From the NCBI GenBank assembly GCA_017882455.1, contig JADGPL010000005.1:1-64000 (forward strand): a stretch of DNA of 64,000 nt, written 5' to 3'. The stretch is from Solirubrobacteraceae bacterium. GTDB taxonomy: Bacteria; Actinomycetota; Thermoleophilia; Solirubrobacterales; Solirubrobacteraceae. The position numbers and the translations under genes were made by a program. The notes under the pieces were generated by a model. That model saw only the letters and a list, made by a program, of their open reading frames with translations, ran no database searches and was not told the origin of the DNA. Numbering within the stretch: the stretch's first letter is position 1; each line of letters starts with the position of its first letter. Below are positions 45,329 through 47,934 of the stretch, piece after piece.

Positions 45329-46267
45329 GTGTCAGAGCAGTTCTGCGACGTCGGCCGGGGCATCACCCTCTGCTACGAGACATTTGGCGATCCAGCGGAC
45401 CCCGCGGCCCTGCTGGTAATGGGGTTGGGCACCCAGATGATCGCGTGGCACGAGGACTTCTGCCGGGAGCTGGCCGAGCGCGGCCTGCACGTGGTGCGCT
45501 TCGACAACCGCGACATCGGGCGCTCGACCCACCTTCAGGGCCGTCCGCCCACGGTCCCCCAGCTGCTGATGCGCTCCAAGCGGGCCGGCGTGTACACGCT
45601 CGCCGACATGGCCGAGGACGCGGCCGGTCTGTTGCGCGAGCTGGATCTCGCGCCCGCGCACGTGATCGGCGCCTCGATGGGGGGGATGATCGCCCAGACG
45701 CTCGCGGCACGCCACCCCGAGACGGTGCGCTCGCTGGTCTCGATCATGTCCAACACCGGCAACCGCTGGAGCGGACAACCCTCGCCGCGGGTCTATGCCG
45801 CGCTGCTGCGGCGCGCCCCCCGCGAGCGCGAGGCGTTCGTCGCGCACATGGAGGGCGTGTTCGCCGCGATCGGCTCACGCCGCCTGGAGCGGGACACCGA
45901 GGACATCCGCGCGCTCGCCGGCGCGAGCTATGACCGCGACCATGACGCCGAGGGCCCGGGACGCCAGCTCGCCGCGATCATCGCCTCGGGCGATCGCACC
46001 GCCGAACTGCGCAGGATCTCGGCGCCGACGCTCGTGATCCACGGAACCGCCGATCCACTCGTTGCGCCCTCCGGCGGGCGCGCGACCGCGCGGGCGATCC
46101 CGAACGCCGAGCTGATGCGCGTGAAGGACATGGGACACGACCTGCCGCGGGCCGTCTGGCCGAGGCTGATCGACGCGATCTCAGAGCACGCCCGCGCTGC
46201 GGACGCAGCCCGGACCCACCTGCCCCCGCAGGCCCGAGCCGCGTCCGTGCCGGGCCTGCGGGGATAG
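45329..46267 (+). CDS. Alpha/beta hydrolase (serine type)
   Basis: 312 residues, alpha/beta hydrolase fold with serine nucleophile in [15 protein letters not shown], catalytic Asp probably in [10 protein letters not shown], His in [13 protein letters not shown]. The N-terminal [30 protein letters not shown] is typical of a large actinobacterial esterase/hydrolase group (some act on lactones or aclacinomycin-like methyl esters); the substrate cannot be read here. GTG start at 45329. Confidence 0.88.
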
Positions 46268-46953: not shown

Positions 46954-47049
46954 TGCGCCCGGCGGGAATCGAACCCGCGGCCTGCGGCTTGAAAGACCGC
47001 TGCTCTTTGGCTCCCCGAAGAGAACCGTTGACCACTGAGCTACGGGCGC
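46954..47049 (-). tRNA. tRNA-Glu (anticodon UUC) with 24-nt D-loop insertion
   Basis: Cloverleaf read leftward: acceptor GCGCCCG/CGGGCGC with discriminator A, D stem GCTC/GAGC, anticodon stem GCGGT/GCCGC with loop CTTTCAA (anticodon UUC, Glu), five-base variable loop, T arm GCGGG-TTCGATT-CCCGC. All are canonical. The D-loop is 31 nt instead of 7: after AGTGGT there are 24 extra bases containing GGTTCTC-TTCG-GGGAGCC, which can form a 7-bp UUCG-capped hairpin, and then the normal A-GAGC resumes. Removing the insert leaves an ordinary 72-nt tRNA. CCA is not encoded. It may be a functional expanded tRNA, an intron-like insert or a decaying gene. Confidence 0.85.
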
Positions 47050-47097: not shown

Positions 47098-47934
47098 CTA
47101 AGCAGGCCGCTCCCGTTGGGCGAGCCCGAAGACGCGCTCGGCGTTCGCGTGCAGGTAGAGCTCGCGCGTCTCTGGGTCGAGCCCGAGCTCATCCAGCCCT
47201 TCGAGGGCCTTCTCGGGGAAGATCATCGGGTAGTTGCTCCCGAAGAGGACCTTGTGGCGCCCGGAGCGGCTCTTCATGTACGCCACGAGCTCCGGCGGCA
47301 GGCGTCTGCTGGTGTAGGCGGAGGTGTCGATGTAGACGTTCTGATGCTTGCGGCACACCGCGATCATCTCCTCCGTCCACGGATAGCCGATATGGCCGCC
47401 GACGATCCTCAGCTCGGGGAAGTCCAGGGCGATCTGGTCGATGTGCGGGATCGGGCGGCCAGGCTCGGAGGGGCGCAGCGGGCCGGTGTGTCCGACCTGG
47501 GTGCAGAAGGGCACGCCGAGATCCACGCAGGCCGCATACAGCGGATAGAAGCGCCGGTCGGTCGGCGGTGTCTCCCACAGCCACGGGAGCATGCGCAGGC
47601 CGATGAACCCGAGCTCGCTCACGCAGCGGCGCAGCTCGCGCACGGCCTCCATCGGCCTGTCCAGCGCCACCGCCGCAAGACCCGCGAAGCGGTCGGGGTG
47701 CGCGGCCACCCAGCCGGCGACCTCGTCGTTGGAGATCAGAGCGCCCTCGCGGGGAGCGTGCCAGGCGGTCAGCAGGCCGAAGGCGACGCCGGCGCCGTCC
47801 ATCGCCTGGATGCTCCCGTCGATCGGTATCTCCCCCTCCGGAACCTCCCCGCCCCTCCAGCGCCGCAGCGACTCGAACATGTCGTGGTCCAGGAAGCGCC
47901 GCGTGGGGTGCTGCATCCAGGCATCGATGATCAT
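47098..47934 (-). CDS. Amidohydrolase-2 family metal-dependent hydrolase
   Basis: TIM-barrel amidohydrolase of the Amidohydro_2 (ACMSD-related) family, 278 residues. Typical segments: GLRMLPWLWETPPTDRRFYPLYAACVDLGVPFCTQVGHTG (with the metal His), IVGGHIGYPWTEEMIAVCRKHQNVYIDTSAY and the terminal VLFGSNYPMIFPEKAL with Asn where many have Asp. The N-terminal H-x-H of canonical members reads IIDAWMQHP, so one metal ligand differs. May decarboxylate or hydrolyse an aromatic or keto acid; substrate unknown. Confidence 0.86.
   Translation of the reverse strand: MIIDAWMQHPTRRFLDHDMFESLRRWRGGEVPEGEIPIDGSIQAMDGAGVAFGLLTAWHAPREGALISNDEVAGWVAAHPDRFAGLAAVALDRPMEAVRELRRCVSELGFIGLRMLPWLWETPPTDRRFYPLYAACVDLGVPFCTQVGHTGPLRPSEPGRPIPHIDQIALDFPELRIVGGHIGYPWTEEMIAVCRKHQNVYIDTSAYTSRRLPPELVAYMKSRSGRHKVLFGSNYPMIFPEKALEGLDELGLDPETRELYLHANAERVFGLAQRERPA

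Follow-up and report, generated by a model that had tools for sequence, protein, structure and literature searches.

The stretch of DNA analyzed here (the window) comprises 64,000 nucleotides (nt) from a Solirubrobacteraceae bacterium (GenBank assembly GCA_017882455.1, contig JADGPL010000005.1, positions 1 to 64,000), and our subject is a transfer RNA (tRNA) gene on its minus strand (46954..47049), a 96-nt tRNA-Glu(UUC) with an additional hairpin in its D-loop. The Rfam tRNA model RF00005 aligns over its full length at 47049-46954 (-) with a score of 66.6 bits (threshold 29), recording a D-loop insertion of 25 nt. Pairing is complete in all four stems, and a 72-nt tRNA remains once 24 nt are dropped, in agreement with the original prediction, made from the letters of the window, of a tRNA-Glu(UUC) with canonical arms and a 24-nt hairpin insertion in the D-loop. 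The CCA end is not encoded, as for most tRNA genes listed in the host genome. ARAGORN detects the gene and misreads its anticodon as 'ggag'. Since annotation based on this program mis-assigns the gene, carrier genomes will seem to be without a GAA-reading tRNA.

Read from its 5' end, the tRNA begins with the acceptor strand GCGCCCG (47043..47049), which forms seven of seven pairs with 46955-46961 (CGGGCGC), followed by UA and the D-stem strand GCUC (47037..47040). This D-stem strand is invariant in the aligned bacterial and viral variants and places C11 and C13 where tRNA-Glu usually has U11 and U13. The expanded D-loop (47006..47036) is 31 nt long and consists of AGUGGUCAAC, the hairpin and AAA, with A14, G15, G18, G19, and A21 retained. 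The hairpin is made up of a 5' arm GGUUCUC (47020..47026), a tetraloop UUCG (47016..47019), read directly from the sequence and of the UNCG type in many variants, and a 3' arm GGGAGCC (47009..47015). It emerges between G18-G19 and A21, at the position-20a site in the beta region of the D-loop, and in normal tRNAs the G19-A21 region differs in length by a few bases only. The D-stem is completed by GAGC (47002..47005, with G22 and G24) and, after a single A, the anticodon arm GCGGU-CUUUCAA-GCCGC (46984..47000) presents the anticodon UUC (46991..46993; Glu, GAA/GAG). Next come a 5-nt variable loop AGGCC (46979..46983), in which nt 47 is present contrary to the E. coli tRNA-Glu rule, the T-arm GCGGG-UUCGAUU-CCCGC (46962..46978), the 3' acceptor strand and a final A. 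The anticodon was assigned from the model alignment, and the 3' D-stem strand, anticodon arm and T-arm from both the model and covariation alignments. The tRNA core is preserved, with U8-A14, G15-C48, G18, G19, and U54-A58 invariant or nearly so across variants, and the D-loop flanks AGUGGUnAA and AA show no variation in either variant alignment.

A pattern search of the order Solirubrobacterales recovered the expanded tRNA in 35 of 232 genomes, distributed over 3 of 54 genera, and the 19 distinct bacterial variants are informative about the hairpin. The D-stem is invariant among them, as is most of the acceptor stem, while the inserted helix is almost wholly changed (GGUUCUC/GGGAGCC, UCCAACC/GGGUGGA, GGCACCU/GGGUGCC, GGGCUUU/GAGGCCC, and others). 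Despite this turnover, both sides change in six of the seven hairpin pairs and 97% of cells are paired, which bears out the 7-base-pair (bp) helix with a UUCG tetraloop that had been proposed. The whole-structure covariation score of the bacterial alignment is 0.353, compared with 0.140 when shuffled and at most 0.092 with the partner strand slid. When 9 bacterial and 7 viral variants are aligned together, all seven hairpin pairs covary and the whole-structure score is 0.568 (0.173 shuffled). RNAalifold recovers the inserted helix as well. A chance hairpin is excluded because the helix is conserved and covaries in the 19 variants, and on this comparative evidence the hairpin is under selection, presumably read by its shape and not by its sequence. 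The same data bear on whether the gene is decaying or mis-assembled, the original prediction having listed a newly disabled gene among its options. Damaged copies are indeed produced, as 3' halves found in several genomes show, but 35 genomes, each assembled independently, contain the gene at full length, its arms perfectly paired and its changes compensatory. With the arms intact and no other UUC tRNA found, a pseudogene or assembly error is refuted by this conservation, and decay of any kind is close to impossible.

The tRNA complement of the carriers indicates what the gene may do. Searching the window genome with a covariance model yielded 41 tRNAs, among them one canonical Glu(CUC) and no UUC tRNA besides the expanded one. 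The same holds for a carrier of a different genus that is rated 100% complete (G096), in which the tRNA set is otherwise full, a canonical Glu(CUC) is present and the expanded tRNA is the sole UUC tRNA. GAA codons are in use, accounting for 7 of the 155 Glu codons in five window genes (~4-5% of Glu codons). Among carriers, 19 GAA codons occur in GluRS genes and 16 in GatB genes, several at columns where relatives have Glu; reassignment of GAA was considered and is unsupported, given these Glu-conserved columns. By the established wobble rules, GAA should lie beyond the reach of a CUC anticodon. With GAA in use and no other UUC tRNA at hand to read it, we strongly infer that the expanded tRNA must translate.

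A different employment, in which a specialized tRNA serves mainly outside the ribosome (e.g., in tetrapyrrole synthesis or with a peptide-tRNA ligase), would suit the odd body without canonical Glu determinants, and tRNA-Glu is also a substrate for glutamyl-tRNA reductase. Its status as the sole UUC tRNA found, the GAA codons in conserved genes, the filling of the Glu(UUC) slot of phage arrays by the expanded tRNA (see below) and neighboring genes that point to no dedicated pathway together make this very improbable. An intron-like insert, cut out of the precursor along some unknown route to leave a normal 72-nt tRNA, has to be weighed on similar terms, because an ordinary tRNA is indeed left after dropping 24 nt and D-loops are among the sites of archaeal tRNA introns. 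However, the tRNA splicing endonuclease (EndA, PF01974) was found in none of nine genomes tested, with archaeal controls positive, self-splicing introns are far longer than the insert, and the length, helix and flanking bases of the hairpin are conserved in bacteria and viruses, unlike a mere removable spacer. We regard excision as highly unlikely. Because no splicing endonuclease was detected in the nine genomes, retention of the hairpin in the mature tRNA is taken as the default.

Our preferred reading is that this locus encodes a working tRNA-Glu(UUC) which would retain its hairpin, is the sole GAA reader of its host and has replaced the canonical tRNA in three genera; we assign a probability of roughly 80% to its being the sole reader. 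A stable expanded tRNA was one of the options of the original prediction, and it is favored by conservation in three genera, a covarying extra helix, the lack of another Glu(UUC) gene and the use of GAA. Its other options fared less well: an intron-like insert is unlikely on the grounds just given, and a purely non-translational role is disfavored as nothing else was found to read GAA. It had also been stated that absence from relatives combined with a second, normal tRNA-Glu(UUC) would make the gene a pseudogene; there are instead 35 carriers, and no other UUC tRNA was found in the window genome or in G096. Several points weigh against our reading. The window genome is 95% complete, and a missed canonical gene is possible there, although such an omission is improbable in all 35 genomes at once. 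Sensitivity is also incomplete for the pattern that sought canonical tRNA-Glu(UUC). Unconstrained folding of single sequences, which ignores tertiary contacts (T-loop with G18-G19), favors, by 2-3 kcal/mol in most variants, a D-arm that is slightly rearranged. Lastly, bacterial and viral sequences interleave in a tree of the 96-nt tRNA, a pattern that fits exchange and is too weak to give its direction.

Carriage of the expanded tRNA is close to universal within the three genera of soil actinobacteria, at 21 of 24 genomes in the window's own genus and 11/12 and 3/3 in two genera of another family. The non-carriers in the window's genus are 58-74% complete, and the misses in all three genera are incomplete genomes. 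The same pattern search did not find it in any of the other 51 genera of the order; most of these possess a canonical tRNA-Glu(UUC), in most cases with U11-A24 and in many with a shorter variable loop. A class-level sample returned the same three genera out of 128, and a search with the locus as query recovered the expanded tRNA across the window's genus. Wide bacterial spread was considered and rejected: when 396 genomes drawn evenly from the phylum were examined for the tRNA with whatever anticodon, the window genome was the only match, and in a scan of contigs with named records, those of the matches listed that came from other phyla failed the cloverleaf test. Real cases among the matches listed in that scan are mostly metagenome-assembled genomes (MAGs) of Solirubrobacterales/Solirubrobacteraceae (Thermoleophilia, Actinomycetota). 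Three of the matches listed bear unrelated record names (Acidimicrobiaceae, Alphaproteobacteria, and Chlamydiae), and their tRNAs equal or closely resemble the real cases, two of them being identical to ones from the three genera; judging by their sequences, the oddly named records are likely mislabelled MAGs.

The tRNA locus is syntenic in many species of the window's genus, which therefore indicates vertical inheritance there. An alpha/beta-hydrolase-like gene from the open reading frame list (45329..46267, plus strand) adjoins the tRNA in most of the 25 syntenic loci of the genus, and an amidohydrolase-like gene from the same list (47098..47934, minus strand) is a conserved neighbor in the closest species. 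One genome (G100, contigs C7 and C32) contains two different expanded tRNA-Glu(UUC) genes. Copies of the 3' half of the expanded tRNA were seen elsewhere at L295, L297, L298, and L299 (G011:C70, G018:C171, G006:C254, and G021:C44, respectively) and resemble attachment sites or remnants of rearrangement. In L092, one such copy is located close to both a transposase-like gene and the alpha/beta-hydrolase usually adjoining the tRNA.

Viruses carry the expanded tRNA too. A scan of IMG/VR identified ten viral contigs with an expanded tRNA-Glu(UUC), and these tRNAs are more diverse than the bacterial ones. Several large viral arrays have it in their Glu(UUC) slot: the records behind L399, L400, and L403 contain 39, 29, and 28 tRNA matches, respectively, and an ordinary Glu(CUC) is present in each of the three. 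The arrays of L398, L399, and L400 include a transfer-messenger RNA (tmRNA), and the other array tRNAs listed by ARAGORN are of ordinary length. A second UUC tRNA in the L399 array (11285, minus strand) has a different 27-nt D-loop that is able to form a hairpin. Expanded D-arms were also observed on viral tRNAs with other anticodons, namely Arg(CCU) at L416 1289 and L418 3503, the latter near tail tape-measure and tail-sheath genes, and Ala(UGC) at L423 2235. Relaxed D-stem patterns yielded no further cloverleaves in the viral sequences, and INPHARED held no record matching at least 80% of the expanded tRNA query. The sequences thus point to a tRNA lineage that is common to phages and bacteria, and acquisition through phages is likely, though not proven.

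This viral connection raises a serious alternative for the purpose of the hairpin, namely that it was selected in phages as a shield from host defense nucleases that cleave tRNA-Glu, the resistant tRNA later being captured by bacteria. Such an origin is compatible with translation and competes only over what the hairpin is for. The expanded UUC tRNAs are indeed members of large phage tRNA arrays, some of which include a tmRNA, and one array contig (L399) encodes a phage RNA ligase of family phrog_548. Evasion of tRNA-targeting defenses by phage tRNAs has been reported (PMC10264068, PMC11555353), and the tRNase RloC cuts out wobble nucleotides (PMC2610378). However, known evasion acts via the anticodon loop, with no mention of the D-arm or D-loop (PMC10264068), and nearly all of the expanded tRNAs found in our largely UUC-restricted scans are UUC, whereas a general anti-nuclease device would be expected on many tRNAs. 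Overall, protection in phages is an unlikely explanation for the hairpin, but one to be kept in view.

The alternative purpose lies in how the tRNA is charged. All 13 carriers tested have a single PF00749 (class-Ic GluRS-type) synthetase, therefore no GlnRS, and GatB is present where tested; a non-discriminating GluRS together with GatCAB is therefore expected. Most relatives have a second, shorter class-Ic synthetase match, probably GluQ-RS. A dedicated second GluRS was rejected as each of the 13 genomes has one PF00749 match only, and the aligned GluRS sequences contain no insertion common to all carriers. In E. coli the determinants of tRNA-Glu are U34, U35, C36, A37, U11-A24, U13-G22:A46 (the augmented D-helix) and the absence of nt 47 (PMC9976931). 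The expanded tRNA has the anticodon determinants U34, U35, and C36 along with A37, the loop being CUUUCAA in bacterial variants and UUUUCAC in the viral L400, but it lacks the augmented D-helix and possesses nt 47, every aligned variant having C11-G24, C13-G22 and a variable loop of 5 nt. The antideterminants that prevent amidation of related tRNAs are G1-C72 and U20a, an extra base at 20a (PMC9976931), and the hairpin emerges exactly at the 20a site. The nearest tRNA bodies are those of Arg(ACG) in G096 (62/72) and of Lys(UUU) and Arg(UCU) in the window genome (59/72 each), and the acceptor stem is identical to that of tRNA-Arg(CCG) of the same genome. This Arg/Lys-like body and acceptor stem suggest remoulding, and the expanded tRNA was probably derived from a tRNA-Arg- or tRNA-Lys-like body. 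Glu charging by the single GluRS would then depend mainly on the anticodon (U34-U35-C36-A37). The shape of the hairpin could stand in for the lost augmented D-helix to aid GluRS, and/or block mis-amidation by GatCAB or mischarging by ArgRS or LysRS. We consider such an identity role for the hairpin possible, while leaning somewhat against it.

Taken together, these observations allow a broader proposal: translating tRNAs whose D-loop bears a second hairpin may form a structural class that is new and is common to phages and bacteria, and that, after transfer from phages, may have displaced the canonical tRNA-Glu(UUC) in whole genera. In this view the hairpin would work by its shape as an element of identity or resistance and would make up for the missing Glu D-arm determinants. 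We offer the proposal tentatively, as falling a little short of an even chance. Work on bacterial translation commonly assumes the canonical tRNA fold, save for tRNA-Sec and allo-tRNAs. Here we have an apparently essential tRNA with an extra helix at the elbow, without textbook identity elements and with an apparently ordinary GluRS, which offers a natural test of how such a shape is tolerated or exploited by GluRS, the amidotransferase, EF-Tu and the ribosome. Since the expanded tRNA is also found in viral arrays, it lends itself to testing whether a phage tRNA can replace that of a host. A full-text literature search, mostly outside subscription literature, found no report of a bacterial tRNA with a D-loop hairpin, and the parts consulted of a review of natural non-canonical tRNAs (tRNA-Sec, allo-tRNAs) contain nothing on tRNAGlu or Actinobacteria and no such hairpin (PMC7609411). 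The D-loop hairpin would thus appear to be a new fold element, in a tRNA without canonical identity signals and with a viral connection. A separate oddity of the window genome is a 73-nt tRNA with a short variable loop and a UAA anticodon (L012, G000:C51:7316-7388), found beside a normal Leu(UAA) with a long variable arm and itself unlike a leucine tRNA.

Several known systems provide a frame for the expanded tRNA. With canonical bacterial tRNA-Glu(UUC) it shares the anticodon UUC, the loop CUUUCAA, G1-C72, A73, the 7-bp acceptor stem, the 5-bp T and anticodon stems and the decoding slot. It differs in its 31-nt D-loop with a hairpin (~8 nt in the canonical tRNA), in having C11-G24 and C13-G22 rather than U11-A24 and U13.G22, in the presence of nt 47 and in a body nearer to tRNA-Arg or tRNA-Lys. 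Archaeal tRNA genes with D-loop introns likewise contain extra D-loop bases, but the splicing endonuclease of this intron type was not found (0/9) and the insert is a covarying hairpin. Phage tRNA arrays resemble the bacterial case in that their Glu(UUC) slot is held by the expanded UUC tRNA. Allo-tRNAs are non-canonical bacterial tRNAs with many anticodons, described from genomes and metagenomes in the sections consulted of the same review (PMC7609411). They have an altered acceptor/T domain (a 12-bp acceptor branch, 8/4 or 9/3) and serine identity elements, whereas the expanded tRNA has a normal 7/5 arrangement. Bacterial tRNA-Sec is also a natural bacterial tRNA with a lengthened D-arm, which, according to those sections, SelA reads by shape (PMC7609411). 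However, in tRNA-Sec a continuous D-stem of 6 bp closes a 4-nt loop, the variable arm is long, the acceptor stem has 8 bp and the anticodon is UCA, while the expanded tRNA combines a 4-bp D-stem and a separate second hairpin with a 5-nt variable loop, a 7-bp acceptor stem and the anticodon UUC.
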